Shown: piece by piece, positions 7,740-44,355 of the stretch
Position numbering within the stretch: the stretch's first letter is position 1
Layout of the letters: each line of letters starts with the position of its first letter
From: Euzebya tangerina
GTDB taxonomy: Bacteria; Actinomycetota; Nitriliruptoria; Euzebyales; Euzebyaceae
Assembly (NCBI RefSeq): GCF_003074135.1
Contig: NZ_PPDK01000001.1
Span: 124,001 to 188,000 of the forward strand
Reading direction: 5' to 3'
DNA length: 64,000 nucleotides
Made by a program: the position numbers and the translations under genes
Notes under the pieces: generated by a model
The model's input: only the letters and a program-made list of their open reading frames with translations
Told to the model about the DNA's origin: nothing
The model's database searches: none

Positions 7740-10228
7740 CGGCCGCCAACAACAGAGAGCAGCCCATGTCCCGCACCGTCCCGACCTCCACCTACCGTCT
7801 GCACCTGACGGGCGACTTCACCCTCGACGACGCTGCTGACCTGGTCGACCACATCGACGCACTAGGGGTGGACTGGGTCTACCTGAGTCCGATCCAGACC
7901 GTCCCGCGCGGTGCGACGCACGGCTACCACGTCCTGGACCCCGACGAGATCAACCCCGAGCTGGGTGGCGAGGAGGCGCTGGCCCGACTGCGAGCGGCGG
8001 CGGACGAGCATGACCGCGGGATGCTGCTCGACATCGTCCCGAACCACCTGGGAGCCTCGGTGGAGAACCCCTGGTGGCGGGATGTGCTGACCCATGGGGC
8101 AGCCTCTGCCTTCGCGCACTACTTCGACGTGGACTTCGAAGCCGGGCGTGTGGTGCTGCCGGTGCTCGGCGGTTCGGTGGAGGAGGCGATCGCGGAGGGT
8201 GCGATCCGCGTGACCGACGACGGCGTGGGGCTGCAGGTGCACGAGACGCGCTACCCGCTGGCACCCGGGACGGATGTGGCCGCGCCGCTCGCCACGGTGT
8301 TGGAGCAGCAGGCCTATGAGCTGACCATGTGGCGGGAGGGCGAGGCACGACTCAACTGGCGCCGGTTCTTCGCCGTGAACGAGTTGGCCGGTGTGCGCGT
8401 GGAAGATCCCGAGGTCTTCGATGCCGTCCACCGGACGGTGCTGGCGCTGCTGGCGGACGGGACCATCGACGGACTTCGAGTGGACCACATCGACGGTCTC
8501 AGCCTGCCGGGTGAGTACGTCACGCGGCTGCGGGATGCCGTCGGACCGGACACGTGGGTGGTGGTCGAGAAGATCGTGGAACTCGACGGACCCGGGGATG
8601 GCATCGAGACCCTCCCAGCGTCCTGGCCGGTCGCGGGCACGACGGGCTACGAGACCGGTGCGCTGATCCAGTCCTGGTTGACCGACACCGAGGGCCACCG
8701 GCAGCTGGTCGCCGACTTCCGGGCCGACACAGGCCTGACGGCCAGCACCGTCGAGGCGCTGCCCGGCTCGGAGCTCACCGTCACCAGGGAGCTGTTCACC
8801 GGCGAGGTGGCCCGCATCGTGGCCGAGCTGCGCGCGGGCCTGCCCGACCTCGCCACCACGGAGGACGAGTTGGCTGAGGCGGTGATGGAGCTCTCGGCCC
8901 ACTTGGACGGCTATCGCACGTATGCCCCCGTCGATGGCCCGCTGTCCGACGCCGACCAGCGGGCGATCGAACACGCCGCCGAGCGGGCCGGAACCGCGCG
9001 TGCCGCGGACCTCGGTCAGCTGCTGCAAGCGCCGGCTGCCCGACCCGCGCTGCTCCGCTGGCAGCAGCTCACCGGGCCCGCGACCGCCAAGGGGTTCGAG
9101 GATCGGCTGATGTTCCAACACGTCGCGCTGGCCAGTCTCTGCGAGGTCGGCGCCGACGCCCACTACATGGACAGTCCACCGGACGCGGTCACCAGCGCCG
9201 CGCTGCTGGTCGAGCAGGCAACGCACGCCCCCTACGCCGGCATCACCACGTCGACTCACGACGCGAAGCGCAGCGAGGACGTGCGAGCGCGGCTGCTGGT
9301 GCTGGCCGAGGCCCCTGCCGCGTTCCGCGACACCCTCCAGACGGTGACGACGCACCTTGCCGAGGGCCCGACCGTAGACGGGCACGCGCGCTGGCTGATC
9401 CTCCAGGCAGTGATCGGGACGCTCGGACTGGCGCCGGCGGAGAGCCTGGCCGACACGCCCACCGAGCCCTACCGAGCCCGTCTGGCCGCGTGGACCACCA
9501 AGGCACTCCGCGAAGCCGATCTGCGGACCGGCCATCGCGACCCCGATGAGGTCTACGAGGCTGCGGTGCTGGAGTGGCTGGATCGGCTGCTCTCACCCGG
9601 TCCGGCGCTCGCCGCCGTCCAGGACCTGGTGGGGAGCATTGCCCTCGCGGGCGCCACGAACAGCTTGGCCACGGTCGTGCTGAAGATCGCAGCCGCTGGT
9701 GTCCCGGACATCTACCGAGGCTGCGAGATCTGGGACGACAGCCTGACCGATCCGGACAACCGACGACCGCTGCAGGTCGACCGTCTGCGCCAGGTGATGG
9801 CGAGCCTGGACGGGGCGACCCCGACCGAACTCCTTGCCCGTTGGGAGGACGGGGCCGTGAAGATGCACGTCACCCGTGCTGGGCTGCATGCTCGACGAGA
9901 TCTGCCCGAGGTGTTCCTCGGTGGGACGGCCACCACCCCGGAGGTGGCCGGAGCCCGGGCTGACCACGTGTGCGCACTGGCACGGACGGGCGGGGAGGAT
10001 GCCACCTCGGTCGTCGCCGTCACCCCGCGCCGGCCGTTGACGCTCGCCGGCGGGGACTGGGCCACCGGGCTGGTTTGGGACGACACCACGGTCGCGATGC
10101 CGGCGGGCACGGCCGGGGACTCCCACGCCACGGAGCTACTGACCGGACGTCGTGTCCCGATCACGGAGGGTAGAGTTGGGGTCGCGGATGCGTTGACTGA
10201 CCTTCCGGTCGCGCTCCTCCGGGTGTGA
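7736..10228 (+). CDS. treY: Malto-oligosyltrehalose synthase
   Basis: 830 residues, GH13. It begins close to PTSTYRLHLTGDFTLDDAADLVDHIDALGVDWVYLSPI, the TreY hallmark, and carries LDIVPNH, LRVDHIDGL (nucleophile Asp), VVEKIVE (Glu) and STHDAKRSEDVRARL. It rearranges the reducing-end glucose of maltodextrins from alpha-1,4 to alpha-1,1. Two starts are possible: the ATG at 7736 coupled to treZ, or the ATG at 7766 with GAGAGCAG before it. The family homology starts at the latter, giving 820 residues. treZ upstream and glgX downstream complete the pathway. Confidence 0.95.
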   Translation: MTAANNREQPMSRTVPTSTYRLHLTGDFTLDDAADLVDHIDALGVDWVYLSPIQTVPRGATHGYHVLDPDEINPELGGEEALARLRAAADEHDRGMLLDIVPNHLGASVENPWWRDVLTHGAASAFAHYFDVDFEAGRVVLPVLGGSVEEAIAEGAIRVTDDGVGLQVHETRYPLAPGTDVAAPLATVLEQQAYELTMWREGEARLNWRRFFAVNELAGVRVEDPEVFDAVHRTVLALLADGTIDGLRVDHIDGLSLPGEYVTRLRDAVGPDTWVVVEKIVELDGPGDGIETLPASWPVAGTTGYETGALIQSWLTDTEGHRQLVADFRADTGLTASTVEALPGSELTVTRELFTGEVARIVAELRAGLPDLATTEDELAEAVMELSAHLDGYRTYAPVDGPLSDADQRAIEHAAERAGTARAADLGQLLQAPAARPALLRWQQLTGPATAKGFEDRLMFQHVALASLCEVGADAHYMDSPPDAVTSAALLVEQATHAPYAGITTSTHDAKRSEDVRARLLVLAEAPAAFRDTLQTVTTHLAEGPTVDGHARWLILQAVIGTLGLAPAESLADTPTEPYRARLAAWTTKALREADLRTGHRDPDEVYEAAVLEWLDRLLSPGPALAAVQDLVGSIALAGATNSLATVVLKIAAAGVPDIYRGCEIWDDSLTDPDNRRPLQVDRLRQVMASLDGATPTELLARWEDGAVKMHVTRAGLHARRDLPEVFLGGTATTPEVAGARADHVCALARTGGEDATSVVAVTPRRPLTLAGGDWATGLVWDDTTVAMPAGTAGDSHATELLTGRRVPITEGRVGVADALTDLPVALLRV

Positions 10229-10306
10229 TCTGCGAGCAGGGGCGCAGACTGGGGATGTCGAGCCGCCCCAACCCACCCCACCTGTTCCCGACGACAAGAG
10301 AGCACT

Positions 10307-12425
<2,119 letters not shown>

Positions 12426-36040: not shown

Positions 36041-39000
36041 GTGACTGAGCCCGTGACCCACCTGCCATTCAAGCGAATCGCCATCGTCAACCGTGGCGAG
36101 TCCGCCGTCCGCCTGATCCACGCCGTCGCCGAGTGGAACGTCCAGCACGGTGACGAGGTGGCCACCATTGCACTGCACACCCACGCCGAGCGCACCGCGA
36201 TGCATGCGCGCATGGCCGACGAGGCCCACCTGATCGAGTCAGTTGGCACCGCCTTCCTGGACTACGACGTCCTTGAGCAGGCCCTGGTCGACACACAGGC
36301 CGACGCGGTCTGGGTGGGCTGGGGGTTCGTCGCCGAGCACCCTGAGTTCGCCGACCTCTGTGACCGTCTCGGCCTGACGTTCATCGGCCCCTCAGGCGAC
36401 GTCATGCGACGACTGGGCGACAAGATCGGTGCCAAGAAGCTGGCGGAGGAGGTGGGTGTCCCGGTCGCACCGTGGAGCAACGGACCGGTCGAGTCGGTCG
36501 AGGAAGCGGAGGGGCAAGCCGAGTCAATCGGCTACCCGTTGCTGATCAAGGCGACGGCCGGTGGTGGCGGCCGGGGCATCCGTCGCGTGGACTCGCCCGA
36601 GGATCTGCACACCGCCTATCAGCGCGCCTGCGACGAGGCAGGCAAGGCCTTCGGGAATCCGGTCGTCTTCATGGAGCACCTGGTGACGGGCGCCCGCCAC
36701 GTCGAGGTGCAGGCTGCCGGGGATGGCCAGGGCGGCGGCTGGGCGCTGGGGGTCCGTGACTGCTCGATCCAACGTCGGAACCAGAAGATCATCGAGGAGT
36801 CGGCCTCCCCGGTCCTGTCCGATGAGCACAACCGGATGCTCGGCAAGGTGGCCGTCGACCTGATCGTGGCGGCGAAGTACCAGGGCGTCGGGACCGTCGA
36901 GTTCCTCTACGACACGACCACTGACACCTTCGCCTTCCTCGAGGTGAACACGCGCCTGCAGGTCGAGCACCCGATCACGGAGCTGACCACCGGCGTGGAC
37001 ATCGTCAAGCTGCAGCTCGAGATCGCTGCCGGTCGCACCCTGGAGGGCGACCCCCCGCCGATCACCGGCCACGCCATCGAGGTGCGGCTGAACGCCGAGG
37101 ACCCCTCCGCCGGCTTCGCCCCCGCGGCCGGCCGGATCACCGCCCTCAACTTTCCCTCCGGACCGGGGATCCGAGTCGACACCGGAGTAGCCGAGGGTGA
37201 CTCGATCCAGTCGGAGTACGACGCCATGGTCGCCAAGATCATGGCCTGGGGCTCGGACCGTGCCGAGGCCCGAGGACGGCTGGTCCATGCCCTCGAGGAG
37301 ACGGTGGTGTCCATCGAGGGCGGGGCGACCAACAAGTCGTTCCTGCTGCACCTCCTGGGCCTCGAGGAGGTCATCAGCGGGTCGGCGCACACCTCCTGGC
37401 TGGACAGCTACACCGCCGAGGGACGACACCTGGTCAGCGACCACGCCGGCGTGGCTGTCCTCGTGACCGGCGCCGAGGCGTACCTGCAGGCGGCGGTGTA
37501 CGAGCGCAACGAGTTCTTCGCCTCCGCCGGCCGAGGACGTCCGCGGCTGACCCACGAGCCGGTCACGACGGTGGACGCGTCGCTGCGCGGCGAGCAGTAC
37601 CGCATGGCCGTCCAGCGCATCAACCCGACGACCTACCGGATCGAGGTCGACGACGCCGTGGTGACCCTCGAGATGACGGACGTCAGCGAGTTCGAGTCCC
37701 GCGCACGCATCGGCGACCGCACCTACCGGATCATGTCGACCACCCAGGGCGGCGACCACCTGATCGAGGTCGACCACATCACCCACCGCGTCAGTCGTGA
37801 CGACGCCGGCACGATCCGCTCACCATCCCCGTCGCTGGTCATCGCCACCAGCGTTGAGCCGGGCGACGCCGTCGCCCAGGGCGACCTGCTGGTCGTGCTC
37901 GAGGCCATGAAGATGGAGACGCAGATCACGGCGCCCTTCGACGGCACCATCGTCGAGGTCCCCGTCGGACCCAGCACCCAGGTGGATGCCGGCACACCGC
38001 TGGTCATCATGGAGGCGGCCAGCGACGGTGAGGAGGAAGCTGACGGGACGAATCGGATCGACTTCGCCGATCTGGCCGACACCGCCGACGACACGCCCAC
38101 GGAGCGCGAACGCCTGCTGGCCTGCCTGGACGCGATCCGCTGGACCGTCATGGGGTTCGACACCAAGGAGGGTGTCGTTGCGGAACTGACGGCGCAGCTG
38201 AGCGACGCCCGCGACGACGCGCTCGCCCACGACGACGAGGCCATCGCGGCGTCTCTGGAGATCCTGCAGGTCTTCAGCGACATCGGCTCACTGGCCCGCA
38301 ACCGTCGTGCCGGCGAGCTGAGCGAGGCGGAGGACCACAACGCCCAGGAGTTCCTCCACCACTGGTTGCGGTCGCTCGACGTCGAGGCCGAAGGTCTGCC
38401 GGAGTCATTCCAGGCCAAGCTCTCCAAGGCGTTCGCCCACTACGGGGTGGGCGATCTGGAGCAGGGCGTCGACCTCGAACGCGCCGCCTTCCGCCTCTTC
38501 AACGCCCAGGAGGAGGCGGCCTCGCACGAACGGTTGCTCGCGGCTGTGCTGAACGGCCTGCGGCTGGACCCGACGCGGCTGGACGCCGACGAGACCGAGC
38601 AGATCCAGGCGGTCCTGGGCGAGTTCATCATCGCGACCGAGTTGCGATTCCCGGACCTCGGGAACCTGGCTCGCAGCGTCCGCTACGAGACCTTCGACCA
38701 GCCAGCCATCGCCTTCCGGCAGTCCTCCGTGCTGTGGGAGATGGGTGATCACCTCGATGCGCTGCGGGCAGGCACACCGGAGGCACTGGGTGAGACCCGC
38801 GCTGAGGAGCGCATCGGGGCGCTGGTCAACTGCCCGGAGACCGTCATCGAGTTGCTGGGTGAGTCACCCGGGGACCTGACCGGGGATCCGATGCTCGGCG
38901 TGATGTTCGAGCGCCTCTACCGCGTCAAGCAGCTGCACGACGTCCAGATCAACCAGGACCTGCACTCGGCCGGCTACTACACCGACGTCTCGGACGGCTC

Positions 39001-41605
39001 GGGGGGCATGGCACCCCAGCTTCGCTACGTCGTGGCCACGATCACCGACATGAGCGACGCCGAGGCGGCCTTGGCGCGGGCACTCGAGCACGGCACCGGC
39101 GTGACAACCTCCGCTCCGCTGTCCATCGACCTGTACCTGCGGTGGGACGGTCAGCTGGCCTCGGCAGCCGAGGTGGCCCCGTGGGCCGAAGCGTTGGCGC
39201 GCGCCGCCGACCGCCCCGACAACCTGCGGCGCATCAGCATCAGCGGTGCCGACCCCGACGGTGAGGTGTTCCATCTCACCTACCGCGCCGTCTCTGGCGA
39301 TGACGGCCAGGTCGAGCTGGTCGAGGACACCGTCATCCGGAACTTCCACCCGATGATCGCGGGGCGCCTGCAGCTGGGCCGGTTCGTGGAGAACTTCCAC
39401 ATCGAGCGGCTGCCGTCGCGACCGGACATCTACCTCTTCAAGCTGGTGGGCCGGGCCAACAAGCGGGACAGCCGGCTCTTCGCAGCGGCAGAGGTCCGGG
39501 ACCTGACGCCGAACCTGGACCGGGACGGGACCGTCATCGGCCTACCGGCGGTCGAGCGTGTCGTCTCGGCCTGCGCCGACGCCATCCGGGTCGCGCAGAC
39601 CGAACACGACCCCAAGCGCCGGATGGCCACGAACCGGATCACCCTCTACGTCTGGCCGCCGTTCGACCTGCCGGTCAGCGCCCTCGACACCATCGGGGAA
39701 CGGCTGACCACGCCCACAGCCGGGCTTGGGTTGGAGGGCGTCGAGGCGATCGGCACCATCATCGATCGTGCGGCCATCGAGGGCGGAGCCAGCGAGGAGG
39801 AGGCGACCCACGACGTCGTCGTCAAGTTCGGCTTCGACGCGGAGCGTGGCCGTGAGTTCTCGATCGAGCAGCCCACCACCTCTTCGGTCCCGGGGCTCGA
39901 CCCCTACCGACAGAACGTGATCCTGTCCCGCCAGCGCGGGTCGATCTATCCCTACGAACTCGTGGAGAAGCTGACCCGCGGGGGCGGTACCTTCACCGAG
40001 TACGCCGTCGGGGCGGACGGCTCCTTCGACGTCGTTGATCGGCCGCCCGGCACCAACCAGGCCGGCTTCGTGTCCGGGGTCCTGACCACGCCGACCGACC
40101 GGCACCCGGACGGCATCACCCGGGTGCTGCTGATGGGGGATCCGACCAAGGGACTGGCATCGATCGCCGAGGCGGAGAGCCGGACCGTGATCGCCGCGCT
40201 CGACCTGGCCGCCTCGCTCGGCGTGCCGGTCGAGTGGTACGCCGTCTCGGCCGGTGCCCGGATCGCCATGGACACCGGGACGGAGAACATGGACTGGGTC
40301 TCCCGTGCCCTCCGCCGGATCATCGAGTTCACCCAGGACGGCGGAATCATCAACATCGTCGTGACCGGGATCAACGTCGGCGCCCAGCCCTACTGGAACG
40401 CCGAAGCCACCATGCTGATGCACACCAAGGGCATCCTGATCATGACGCCGGACAGCGCCATGGTGCTGACGGGGAAGCAGTCGCTGGACTACTCCGGGGG
40501 GGTCTCGGCCGAGGACAACTTCGGCATCGGCGGCTACGACCGCATCATGGGCCCGAACGGCGAGGCGCAGTACTGGGCGCCGGACCTCGACGCCGCGCTC
40601 GAGCTGATGCGGCGGCACAACGAGCTGACCTTCGTCGTACCCGGTGAGCGGTTCCCACGGCAGCGGCCGACCTCGGACGACCCAGAGCGCGACGTCGGCA
40701 GCTCGCCCCACGACGGGCAGGAGTTCGCCACGGTGGGGGAGATCTTCAGCCCGGAGACCAACCCGGGACGGAAGAAGCCGTTCGACATCCGCTCGATCAT
40801 GCGGGCCGTCAGCGACACCGACGTCGAGCCGATGGAGCGGTGGCTCGACATGCGCGACGCCGAGACGGGGGTGGTGTTCGAGACCCGCGTGGACGGGCAG
40901 GCGGTCACCATGGTCGGGATCTCATCCCGTTCGCTGCCCCGCACCGGTGTCCTGCCGGCGGACGGGCCCAGCACCTGGACGTCGGGGACGCTGTTCCCGA
41001 TGTCATCCAAGAAGATCGCGAGGGGCATCAACGCCGCCAGCGGCAACCGGCCGCTGATCGTGTTGGCCAACCTCTCCGGCTTCGACGGCAGCCCCGAGTC
41101 GCTGCGGAAGTGGCAGCTCGAGTTCGGTGCCGAGATCGGTCGGGCCATGACCAACTTCGACGGCCCGATCGTGTTCTGCCTGGTGGGGCGCTACCACGGC
41201 GGTGCCTTCGTGGTGTTCAGCAAGGTCCTCAACGACAACACGATCGCGCTGGCGGTCGAGGGGACGTTCGCCTCGGTGCTCGGTGGTGCACCGGCCGCGG
41301 CCGTGGTGTTCACCCGTGAGGTGGACCAGCGGACCGATGCCGACCCGCGCATCACCGACCTGCGCGAGCGGATCGCCGCGGCGTCGGGGGCGGAGCGCAG
41401 TGACCTCGAAGTCGAGCTGAGCGAACTCCGACCCGTGGTCCGGGCTGAGAAGCTCGGCGAGAAGGCCGCCGAGTTCGACGCCGTCCACACGGTGGAGCGG
41501 GCCAGGGACATGGGCTCGGTCGACGCCATCATCCCGCCGCATCGGCTGCGCCCGGCCATCATCCAGGCGCTGAGCGAAGGGATGGCTCGGGCGACCCGGG
41601 GGTAG
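36041..41605 (+). CDS. Single-chain multidomain acyl-CoA carboxylase (eukaryotic ACC-like layout)
   Basis: 1854 residues. Biotin carboxylase, about 5-460: KRIAIVNRGESAVRLIH, ATP-grasp IKATAGGGGRGIRRV, EVNTRLQVEHPITELTTG. Biotin carrier, about 590-665: EAMKMETQ with biotinyl K624. A central region of about 600 residues without catalytic motifs. Carboxyltransferase N and C halves, about 1280-1850: INVGAQPYWNAEATMLMHT, DYSGGVSAEDNFGIGGYD, then NLSGFDGSPESLRKWQLEFG. It would make malonyl-CoA or carboxylate another acyl-CoA. Most bacteria split this into separate subunits. GTG at 36041 follows GGAG at 36029-36032. The acyl substrate is not certain. Confidence 0.9.
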   Translation: MTEPVTHLPFKRIAIVNRGESAVRLIHAVAEWNVQHGDEVATIALHTHAERTAMHARMADEAHLIESVGTAFLDYDVLEQALVDTQADAVWVGWGFVAEHPEFADLCDRLGLTFIGPSGDVMRRLGDKIGAKKLAEEVGVPVAPWSNGPVESVEEAEGQAESIGYPLLIKATAGGGGRGIRRVDSPEDLHTAYQRACDEAGKAFGNPVVFMEHLVTGARHVEVQAAGDGQGGGWALGVRDCSIQRRNQKIIEESASPVLSDEHNRMLGKVAVDLIVAAKYQGVGTVEFLYDTTTDTFAFLEVNTRLQVEHPITELTTGVDIVKLQLEIAAGRTLEGDPPPITGHAIEVRLNAEDPSAGFAPAAGRITALNFPSGPGIRVDTGVAEGDSIQSEYDAMVAKIMAWGSDRAEARGRLVHALEETVVSIEGGATNKSFLLHLLGLEEVISGSAHTSWLDSYTAEGRHLVSDHAGVAVLVTGAEAYLQAAVYERNEFFASAGRGRPRLTHEPVTTVDASLRGEQYRMAVQRINPTTYRIEVDDAVVTLEMTDVSEFESRARIGDRTYRIMSTTQGGDHLIEVDHITHRVSRDDAGTIRSPSPSLVIATSVEPGDAVAQGDLLVVLEAMKMETQITAPFDGTIVEVPVGPSTQVDAGTPLVIMEAASDGEEEADGTNRIDFADLADTADDTPTERERLLACLDAIRWTVMGFDTKEGVVAELTAQLSDARDDALAHDDEAIAASLEILQVFSDIGSLARNRRAGELSEAEDHNAQEFLHHWLRSLDVEAEGLPESFQAKLSKAFAHYGVGDLEQGVDLERAAFRLFNAQEEAASHERLLAAVLNGLRLDPTRLDADETEQIQAVLGEFIIATELRFPDLGNLARSVRYETFDQPAIAFRQSSVLWEMGDHLDALRAGTPEALGETRAEERIGALVNCPETVIELLGESPGDLTGDPMLGVMFERLYRVKQLHDVQINQDLHSAGYYTDVSDGSGGMAPQLRYVVATITDMSDAEAALARALEHGTGVTTSAPLSIDLYLRWDGQLASAAEVAPWAEALARAADRPDNLRRISISGADPDGEVFHLTYRAVSGDDGQVELVEDTVIRNFHPMIAGRLQLGRFVENFHIERLPSRPDIYLFKLVGRANKRDSRLFAAAEVRDLTPNLDRDGTVIGLPAVERVVSACADAIRVAQTEHDPKRRMATNRITLYVWPPFDLPVSALDTIGERLTTPTAGLGLEGVEAIGTIIDRAAIEGGASEEEATHDVVVKFGFDAERGREFSIEQPTTSSVPGLDPYRQNVILSRQRGSIYPYELVEKLTRGGGTFTEYAVGADGSFDVVDRPPGTNQAGFVSGVLTTPTDRHPDGITRVLLMGDPTKGLASIAEAESRTVIAALDLAASLGVPVEWYAVSAGARIAMDTGTENMDWVSRALRRIIEFTQDGGIINIVVTGINVGAQPYWNAEATMLMHTKGILIMTPDSAMVLTGKQSLDYSGGVSAEDNFGIGGYDRIMGPNGEAQYWAPDLDAALELMRRHNELTFVVPGERFPRQRPTSDDPERDVGSSPHDGQEFATVGEIFSPETNPGRKKPFDIRSIMRAVSDTDVEPMERWLDMRDAETGVVFETRVDGQAVTMVGISSRSLPRTGVLPADGPSTWTSGTLFPMSSKKIARGINAASGNRPLIVLANLSGFDGSPESLRKWQLEFGAEIGRAMTNFDGPIVFCLVGRYHGGAFVVFSKVLNDNTIALAVEGTFASVLGGAPAAAVVFTREVDQRTDADPRITDLRERIAAASGAERSDLEVELSELRPVVRAEKLGEKAAEFDAVHTVERARDMGSVDAIIPPHRLRPAIIQALSEGMARATRG

Positions 41606-41613
41606 GTCCTCGG

Positions 41614-42432
41614 TCAGCCGTCAGCGACCGGACCCTCCAGCCAGGGGTCGTCGGCCGCTGCTGGCCAGCCGTCGCGGGCAGACAGTCGCCGCGCGATCGA
41701 GGCGAGGAGCACGCCGTACACGACCTTCGAGCCGACATCGGCGAAGGTGAAGAGGAGCTGCCGTCCGACCACCCACTCCGGACCATCACCCAGGGCCATC
41801 AGGTAGGCCACGGGGTACGCGCCCCAGGTCGCGGCGAACAGGTACGTGATGTTGCGAAGCGTCGTCGCGGCCTTGGCCGGCAGCGCCTGCAGCGTGGGGC
41901 CGAGATGACGCATCAGCAGCAGGACGAGGACGACGAACGGGACCGTCGAGACGGCACCCCACACCAGCAGCGCGCTGGTGCTGGTGACCTCGTACAGCTG
42001 TCCGATGTAGCCCGTCACGATCATCGCGACACCCATCACGACGAGCGACAGGCGCAGGCGGTAGAGCCGTTCCCGGGAGAGCTCGAACAGATAGGTCAGC
42101 TGCACCAGAAGGAGTGGGATGGTGATCAGCCAGGAGATGTACCGGAAGCCGTTCTCGAAGGTCCGGTCGCCAGGTACCCACATGCCGCCGTCACCGATGG
42201 TGCCCTCGAAGACGAACGCCCCTCGCCACGAGTTGCTGAGCTGCAGGAAGTGCCACCCGGCGACCAGCATGACCAGGATTGAGAGATAGGTGATCGGACG
42301 CCAGCGAGGAGAGATCTTGGGCAGGTTCATCAGGAACCAGCCGAGTCCGGCCAGCGCCGCCGCGAACGCGCCACTGAACAGCAGCGCAACGGCAGCGTGC
42401 TGCCCCGGCGAGTAGGTGAAGAGGTTCTCCAT
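41614..42432 (-). CDS. Microbial rhodopsin, sodium/chloride-pump (KR2-like) clade with S-T-Q triad
   Basis: 272 residues, seven hydrophobic helices. Helix C reads FRYISWLITIPLLLVQ: R97 conserved, and the positions of KR2 N112/D116/Q123 are S100/T104/Q111. Further clade marks: MIVTGYIGQLYEV after helix D, LLVWGAVS, WGAYPVAYL (W203, Y206, P207), and helix G TFADVGSKVVYGVLL with retinal Schiff-base K236 and counterion D232. Lack of the helix C carboxylate excludes a normal outward proton or sodium pump and points to anion transport, since NTQ relatives pump chloride. ATG at 42432; no Shine-Dalgarno seen. Convergent with the carboxylase gene, divergent from proS. No retinal synthesis gene is nearby. 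Confidence 0.92.
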   Translation of the reverse strand: MENLFTYSPGQHAAVALLFSGAFAAALAGLGWFLMNLPKISPRWRPITYLSILVMLVAGWHFLQLSNSWRGAFVFEGTIGDGGMWVPGDRTFENGFRYISWLITIPLLLVQLTYLFELSRERLYRLRLSLVVMGVAMIVTGYIGQLYEVTSTSALLVWGAVSTVPFVVLVLLLMRHLGPTLQALPAKAATTLRNITYLFAATWGAYPVAYLMALGDGPEWVVGRQLLFTFADVGSKVVYGVLLASIARRLSARDGWPAAADDPWLEGPVADG

Positions 42433-42546
42433 GTCGTGGTTTGTGACCGAATCTGACGGAGTTCTAACCACGACCGCCACCAGGGTTTCCGAACCCAGTA
42501 CATCGGTCCAGTACGGCGGGGCGGCGTCGGCCGTCTCGCCAGGCGC

Positions 42547-42552
42547 TACCGT
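42547..42552 (+). promoter_or_regulatory. -10 box (TACCGT) 6 nt before the proS start
   Basis: TACCGT followed by CCCCCC and then ATG at 42559 would place transcription start on the A of the initiation codon. The same 6-nt gap is seen at lacI and tetR. No clear -35 box is visible. Confidence 0.45.
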
Positions 42553-42558
42553 CCCCCC

Positions 42559-44355
42559 ATGCTCAGACTGTCCTCCCTCTTCCTGCGCACCCTGCGCGAA
42601 GACCCCGCCGACGCCGAGGTTCCGTCCCACAAGCTGCTCATCCGTGCCGGCTACATCCGCCGCGCCGGGCCGGGCGCCTTCACCTGGCTGCCGCTCGGCT
42701 GGATCGTGTACCGCAAGGTCGAGGGGATCATTCGAGCGGAGATGGACGCTGCCGGGTTCCAGGAGGTCCACTTCCCGGCGCTCCTCCCCCGGGAGCCCTA
42801 CGAGACCTCGGGCCGGTGGACCGAGTACGGACCGCTGCTGTTCCGCTTGAAGGATCGCCGTGAGAACGACATGCTCCTCGCCCCGACCCACGAGGAGATG
42901 TTCACGCTGGCCGTGAAGGATCTGTACAGCTCCTACAAGGACCTGCCGCTGTCGATCTACCAGATCCAGACGAAGTACCGAGACGAGGCGAGGCCACGAG
43001 CCGGCCTGCTCCGAGGTCGCGAGTTCGTGATGAAGGACTCCTACTCCTTCGACATCGATCAGGCAGGTCTGCAGGCCTCCTACGACGCCCACCGGTCCGC
43101 CTACATCGCCACGTTCGACCGGCTCGGGATCCCCTACACGATCGTGTCGGCCATGTCGGGGGCCATGGGCGGCTCCTCGTCGGAGGAGTTCCTGGCTCCG
43201 GTCGCGGTGGGCGAAGACACCTTCGTCCGCTGCTCCAACTGCGACTACTCCGCCAACGTCGAAGCCGTCGAGGTCCAGCCACCCCCAGCCCTTCCCATCG
43301 AGGGGCTGCCCGAGGCGCAGGAGGCGGACACCCCCGACACGCCGACGATCGACACCCTGGTCGCCCTGTTCAACGAGCGCGACAACCTGCGGCACCCTGA
43401 CCGGGAGTGGACGGCGGCCGACACGCTGAAGAACGTCGTGCTGACCCTCCAGCACCCCGACGGCACGACGGAGCCGCTGGCCATCGGTGTGCCCGGTGAC
43501 CGGGATGTCGACCTGGTGCGGGTCGAGGCGCAGCTCGCCCCTGCCATCCCCGTGCCCTTCACCGACGAGGACTTCGCGGCCAACACAGCCCTGTCGAAGG
43601 GGTACATCGGACCGGGCGCCCTGGGCGAGGAGAACGCCTCGGGGATCCGGTACCTGGTCGACCCGCGTGTCGCCGACGGCACCTCGTGGATCACCGGGGC
43701 CGACAAGCCGGGCCGGCACGTGGCCAACCTGGTCGCCGGTCGGGACTTCACCCCCGATGGGATCATCCACGCGGCGCAGGTCTTCGACGGTGACCCCTGC
43801 CCTCGGTGTGGTGGCGCCCTGGAGACGGCTCGAGGCGTCGAGATCGGTCACATCTTCCAACTCGGCACGAAGTACGCCGAGGCGTTCGACCTGACGGTGC
43901 TGGACGAGAACGGCAAGAGCCGGATCGTGACGATGGGCTCCTACGGCATCGGGGTCTCCCGCGCCGTCGCGGTGCTGGCGGAGACCAACCACGATGACGA
44001 CGGGCTGATCTGGCCCCGCAACGTCGCGCCGGCCGACGTGCACCTGATCGTGGCCGGGAAGAAGAACGGCCCGCAGCCGGTCGTGGCCGAGCACCTGGCC
44101 GAGCAACTGGAGGCCGCCGGCCTGGAGGTCATGCTGGACGACCGGACCAACGTCTCCGTGGGTGTGAAGTTCAACGACGCCGAACTGATCGGCGTCCCGA
44201 CCATCGTCGTGGTCGGTCGCGGTGCGGACCTGGACGGGGACACGCCCTCGGGCACGGTCGAGGTGAAGGACCGTCGCTCGGGTGAGCGGGAGGACATCGA
44301 CGTGACCGGGGCCGTGGACGCCCTGGTCCGGATCTGCGCCGGGACGCACCCGTGA
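42559..44355 (+). CDS. proS: Prolyl-tRNA synthetase
   Basis: 598 residues, bacterial type. Class II motifs: [27 protein letters not shown] near the start, [41 protein letters not shown] (motif 2) and [18 protein letters not shown] (motif 3). The inserted editing domain is about 225-390, and the C-terminal anticodon-binding domain begins near [10 protein letters not shown]. It charges tRNA-Pro in the cytoplasm. The start seems leaderless. Its stop overlaps the next gene by 4 nt (GTGA). Confidence 0.97.

Follow-up and report, generated by a model that had tools for sequence, protein, structure and literature searches.

The window, the whole 64,000-nt stretch of Euzebya tangerina DNA that we analysed, contains an open reading frame at 41614..42432 on the (-) strand. 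Its translation (MENLFTYSPG...PVADG, 272 aa) is free of stops, and residues 17-248 match the Pfam family PF01036 (Bac_rhodopsin) with 121 bits and an E-value of 7e-35. The product is an intact microbial (type 1) rhodopsin, with the PF01036 domain, seven helices in the structural model and the retinal lysine on helix G; it is called STQ rhodopsin here, after its helix C triad. The gene stands alone, between a carboxylase gene on one side and the divergent proS on the other. The 126-bp gap to proS (42433..42558) should hold the upstream signals; a promoter scan gave no sigma-70-like match in this gap, a terminator scan found nothing, and no Rfam family was matched in the 64,000-nt window. The proS gene, for prolyl-tRNA synthetase, occupies 42559..44355 (+). 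On the other side, a biotin carboxylase/carboxyltransferase fusion (36041..41605 (+)) comes to within 8 bp of the rhodopsin stop codon. It unites biotin carboxylase, biotin carrier and carboxyltransferase domains in a single 1854-aa protein and also matches ACC_central, an arrangement reminiscent of the eukaryote-type acetyl-CoA carboxylase. Two congeners have a close proS (79-80%); the DNA upstream of it differs from this carboxylase and contains no match to STQ rhodopsin, and this synteny is compatible with either insertion or loss of the rhodopsin gene.

STQ rhodopsin was aligned to KR2, whose reference sequence was confirmed letter by letter against the PDB 7q36 chain. Helix C comprises residues 95-117 (42082..42150 (-), limits from the AlphaFold2 model). 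An earlier sequence-only reading of this DNA had set S100, T104 and Q111 against KR2 N112, D116 and Q123, and the alignment gave the same numbering: S100 (TCC, 42133..42135 (-)) stands at the position of KR2 N112, ClR N98 and BR D85, T104 (ACC, 42121..42123 (-)) at that of KR2 D116, ClR T102 and BR T89, and Q111 (CAG, 42100..42102 (-)) at that of KR2 Q123 and ClR Q109. As that reading had also stated, no carboxylate is left at any of the three positions. The counterparts of KR2 R109 (R97, 42142..42144 (-)), D251 (D232, the remaining Schiff-base counterion, 41737..41739 (-)) and K255 (K236, the retinal lysine, 41725..41727 (-)) are all kept, as is R224, and the invariant core is retained throughout (A24, S51, R97, W101, P106, W203, Y206, Y210, D232 and K236). 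Additionally, Q111, Q145, E148 and S235 are of the NDQ/NTQ type, while the KR2 H30, L74 and G263 positions are altered. The T and Q of NTQ are present; with none of the NDQ, NTQ and DTE triads complete, the protein is filed, by its alignment, as neither an NDQ, an NTQ nor a DTE pump. The S100 codon is at least two base changes away from any Asn or Asp codon, so neither a recent point substitution nor one wrongly called base can account for it. Together with the linked differences V57, G59, W60, H61 and L17, this codon argues that the STQ triad is not chance or a local error.

Helix B (residues 42-72, 42217..42309 (-), placed by the AlphaFold2 limits and the alignment) reads VMLVAGWHFLQLSNSW and has a proton-pump-like core, AGWHF. 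V57 (GTC, 42262..42264 (-)) occupies the position of KR2 S70, a Na+ ligand, and H61 (CAC, 42250..42252 (-)) that of KR2 L74, ErNaR E64 and the helix B His of xanthorhodopsin (XR); the xanthorhodopsin-type histidine near the counterion is thus present. All 55 DTE rows of our alignment have H at position 61 and I or V at position 57, all 45 scorable NDQ rows have L and S there, and H61 and V57 are combined with Q111 in STQ rhodopsin only, among 112 aligned rows. A residue at the L74 position is near the Schiff base; in ErNaR, the Glu there serves as an additional counterion (PMC11006869). The Na+ site of KR2 consists of the S70, N112 and D116 side chains and the V67 backbone (PMC7195465); all three side-chain ligands are replaced in STQ rhodopsin. 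In terms of aligned residues, the protein is a DTE-type helix B joined to NDQ/NTQ-type Q111, Q145, E148 and S235. It had been described as aligning with KR2 along nearly its whole length, but that description overlooked helix B. With H61 present on this helix and the NDQ/NTQ serine absent, more than two substitutions separate the protein from a KR2- or ClR-type pump.

In a tree of 47 sequences, the query grouped with the NDQ and NTQ rhodopsins against the DTE pumps with 100/100 support, which agrees with the placement proposed earlier. The full alignment put it on this side but just outside the NDQ+NTQ crown, since NDQ and NTQ sequences formed a group without the query (98/93; 98/94 in a wider set); ClR was the sole NTQ sequence in the tree, and ErNaR and Subgroup 2 were absent from it. 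The terminal branch of STQ rhodopsin is long, about 1.0-1.1. Holding the query with the NDQ rhodopsins of its own class cost 9.3 log units (AU p 0.031) and holding it with ClR cost 15.1 (AU p 0.038). When ClR was left out, the AU p for the query with the class NDQ rhodopsins was 0.063, and when the helix B and triad columns were removed it was 0.32, with support of 89/48. Trees of the N-part and the C-part both put the query on the NDQ/NTQ side, and its position outside the crown was resolved by the N-part only. Membership on the NDQ/NTQ side is thus firm, the first-branch position outside the crown is reasonable but unproven, and without the helix B columns STQ rhodopsin could equally be sister to the NDQ pumps of its own class. 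The part-trees lend no support to recombination that would have joined an XR-like N-terminus to an NDQ-like C-terminus, as both keep the query on the NDQ/NTQ side.

The nearest sequences to STQ rhodopsin are NDQ pumps (42-44% identity); identity is about 32-37% to KR2 and IaNaR and 35% to the NTQ pump ClR. The PDB matches ran from the Na+ pump IaNaR (8jh0, 166 bits) through the NTQ Cl- pump (146) and xanthorhodopsin (144) to KR2 (139). The 112 aligned rows contain 110 other rhodopsins and two entries for the query, one of them from the locus set; the triad was DTE in 55 rows, NDQ in 46, DTD in 9 and STQ in 2. Both STQ rows are this one protein, and none of the 110 other rhodopsins has the triad. 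No second STQ was found among the loci taken, as best matches only, from about 1,270 genomes; the triad may exist elsewhere, because this sampling was partial and only best matches became loci. As near relatives, a genome contig scan returned only three Bacteroidota/Balneolota NDQ rhodopsins (35-37%), two scans of viral contigs returned none, and a plasmid collection gave distant matches only (about 31%). The family, fold and general chemistry are already known; the combination of S-T-Q with this helix B is new to what was searched.

The AlphaFold2 model, for which the window protein was aligned with 25 locus proteins, has seven helices and a mean pLDDT of 91. Its best VIA-align matches were structures of the NTQ Cl- pump ClR (Z 31.3, rmsd 2.0 A, 258 residues), followed by the XR-type Kin4B8 (Z 30.2) and KR2 (Z 29.9). 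The match of the modelled fold to ClR lends weak support to a Cl- pump; the fold discriminates little, because the Z scores of Kin4B8 and KR2 are near that of ClR. Of the three omega aromatics (F15, W72 and Y83 in ClR), W69 is kept, W85 of the BC loop is roughly aligned and the helix A position holds H12. We also looked at the residues of a carotenoid antenna. G159 (41956..41958 (-)) aligns with G171 of KR2 and DDR2 and is the glycine of a possible antenna opening; DDR2, a Na+ pump with G171, binds salinixanthin, and exchange of Thr for Gly at the KR2 T216 position let a Na+ pump bind carotenoid (PMC10026069). Counted from W215/W203, residue 204 of STQ rhodopsin falls at the KR2 T216 position and is a Gly. 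An antenna on this protein is therefore possible in terms of its residues.

The evidence tips modestly toward STQ rhodopsin being a light-driven inward anion (Cl-) pump, and the anion pump that had been thought likely before is kept as the most likely reading, by analogy with related pumps. Without a carboxylate at S100 or T104, only D232 would balance the protonated Schiff base and R97, and possibly H61, which would favour a bound anion. A halide would bind in the dark beside the Schiff base, with S100, T104 and perhaps H61 as its ligands, and photoisomerisation would move it past Q111 toward the cytoplasm; the host's own carotenoid genes and dioxygenase would supply the retinal. In ClR, N98 and T102 directly bind Cl- and T102D abolishes binding (PMC4999514), and the threonine is kept in STQ rhodopsin as T104. 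Halorhodopsin has Thr at the D85 position, and bacteriorhodopsin becomes a Cl- pump by D85T or D85S (PMC4585134). Our preference for the inward anion pump follows from the first two triad residues, which are those of BR D85S (S-T-D). This mutant also qualifies the earlier remark that no characterised pump has STQ: no mention of this triad in a rhodopsin was found in the open-access literature, but D85S is a laboratory precedent. Several points count against anion pumping. ClR N98A, N98D and N98L lose most activity, with N98S not reported (PMC4999514), and Ser at this position is shorter than Asn. The NTQ pump ClR has no counterpart of H61, and only one STQ sequence is among those collected. 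Furthermore, Cl- pumps could not be made from this group's H+ pumps by motif swaps alone (PMC9728251).

ClR, or NM-R3, of Nonlabens marinus (PDB 7cri, 5g28) resembles STQ rhodopsin in its clade, the T and Q of the triad, the R/D/K core, the Q-x-x-E on helix E and the fold, but at about 35% identity it has N98 in place of S100, S and I on helix B in place of V57 and H61, and an H30-equivalent where L17 stands here. KR2, IaNaR and the class NDQ rhodopsins share the clade, Q111, E148, R224 and S235 and differ in N-D versus S-T and in S70 and L74 versus V57 and H61. The ErNaR subgroup 2 NDQ pumps (PMC11006869), which were outside our tree, likewise have a polar residue at the L74 position that points to the Schiff base, although it is Glu rather than His, and STQ rhodopsin lacks the NDQ aspartate to pair with. 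Xanthorhodopsin and Gloeobacter rhodopsin (DTE) share the helix B core A-G-aromatic-H, T104 and the antenna glycines, whereas they have the D and E of their triad in place of S and Q and lie on the opposite side of the tree. Engineered bacteriorhodopsin D85S or D85T similarly has a hydroxyl at the D85 position together with T89, but it is an artificial and distant protein with D96 where STQ has Q. Haloarchaeal halorhodopsin (TSA) also has two hydroxyl residues beside the Schiff base and a helix C without a carboxylate; its kinship is only distant and its origin independent.

STQ rhodopsin might instead be a regulatory photoreceptor or a light sensor, with a slow, non-pumping photocycle caused by the altered active site. 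Its lack of both helix C carboxylates, the unique triad, the DTE rhodopsin already available for energy in the same genome and neighbouring genes with no transport role would all suit a sensor, yet there is no transducer or kinase gene among the neighbours, and Q111, Q145, E148, R224, S235 and a pump-like architecture are kept; we regard a sensor as unlikely. Proton transport, outward or inward, with D232 and/or H61 replacing the helix C acceptor, seems less likely still. D232 is kept and H61 sits where the DTE histidine interacts with the counterion, but the acceptor position has no carboxylate, the donor position is Gln, and the protein groups apart from the DTE pumps. The sequence-only reading had held that neither H+ nor Na+ pumping fits; this stands for Na+, whose ligands are replaced, and goes too far for H+, which by way of D232 or H61 is compatible with the sequence.

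A KR2-like Na+ pump with a rebuilt site is hardly credible. It would agree with the clade, with the retained R97, E148, R224, D232 and S235 and with the NDQ rhodopsins as nearest sequences, and it conflicts with the change of all three side-chain ligands and of H30, L74 and G263. That the gene is a decaying or non-functional copy appears very improbable: the long end branch and the absence of a rhodopsin from the four family relatives searched could be taken as signs of decay, but the frame is intact, the GC3 of 0.87 is coding-like, the invariant core residues are kept and the modelled fold is confident.

It is debated which of the H+, Cl- and Na+ pumps in this group gave rise to which others, and mutational swaps between them succeed in some directions only (PMC9728251). 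STQ rhodopsin is a directly testable candidate intermediate, with the NDQ/NTQ helix C glutamine, a DTE-type helix B and hydroxyls at both ion-site positions. Tentatively, the protein might descend from the earliest split in the Na+/Cl- pump lineage and survive as a natural anion pump of the D85S kind that still has the helix B histidine of the proton pumps; this is possible rather than probable. An early branch that retained the proton-pump helix B would fit the proposed order from H+ pump to Cl- pump to Na+ pump, and helix C anion-pump chemistry would then have preceded both the loss of that histidine and the Na+ site. Should STQ rhodopsin prove to pump anions, the pump code would gain a new motif and optogenetics a new anion-pump scaffold; should it not, this would expose a limit in what the triad code can predict.

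The host is an actinobacterium, probably a marine one. It had been set apart from the marine Bacteroidetes in which the clade was defined, but it is not unlike known carriers, as NDQ rhodopsins occur in 18 further genomes of its class (loci L019-L036); the four family relatives searched have no rhodopsin. In the closest of the class NDQ rhodopsins (L019), L stands in place of KR2 Q78 and D102 is missing. A second rhodopsin in the same genome is of the DTE type and related to xanthorhodopsin and Gloeobacter rhodopsin. It is directly adjoined by a beta-carotene 15,15'-dioxygenase gene (PF15461, 122 bits), the pair lying on the (-) strand at L001:1420-2238 and L001:420-1403 (genome contig C1, near 993950-994618). 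The advice to look for retinal and carotenoid genes was thus rewarded further: another contig holds a cluster of squalene/phytoene synthase, CrtI-family desaturase (488 bits), polyprenyl synthase and IPP isomerase, and the window's own contig a lycopene cyclase (PF05834, 171 bits), while the host genome search yielded no lycopene cyclase of the CrtYcd type. With the dioxygenase and carotenoid genes identified by their sequences, a supply of retinal in the host is plausible. Upstream of the DTE rhodopsin/dioxygenase pair are a HisKA_3 histidine kinase (L135:10550-11980 (-)) and a LuxR-type response regulator (9894-10553 (-)), which could possibly control it. Several NDQ-bearing genomes of the class carry a DTE rhodopsin too, and the DTE rhodopsin match of one class relative (L042, G037:C102:3151-3885) contains a single in-frame TGA within the part that aligned.
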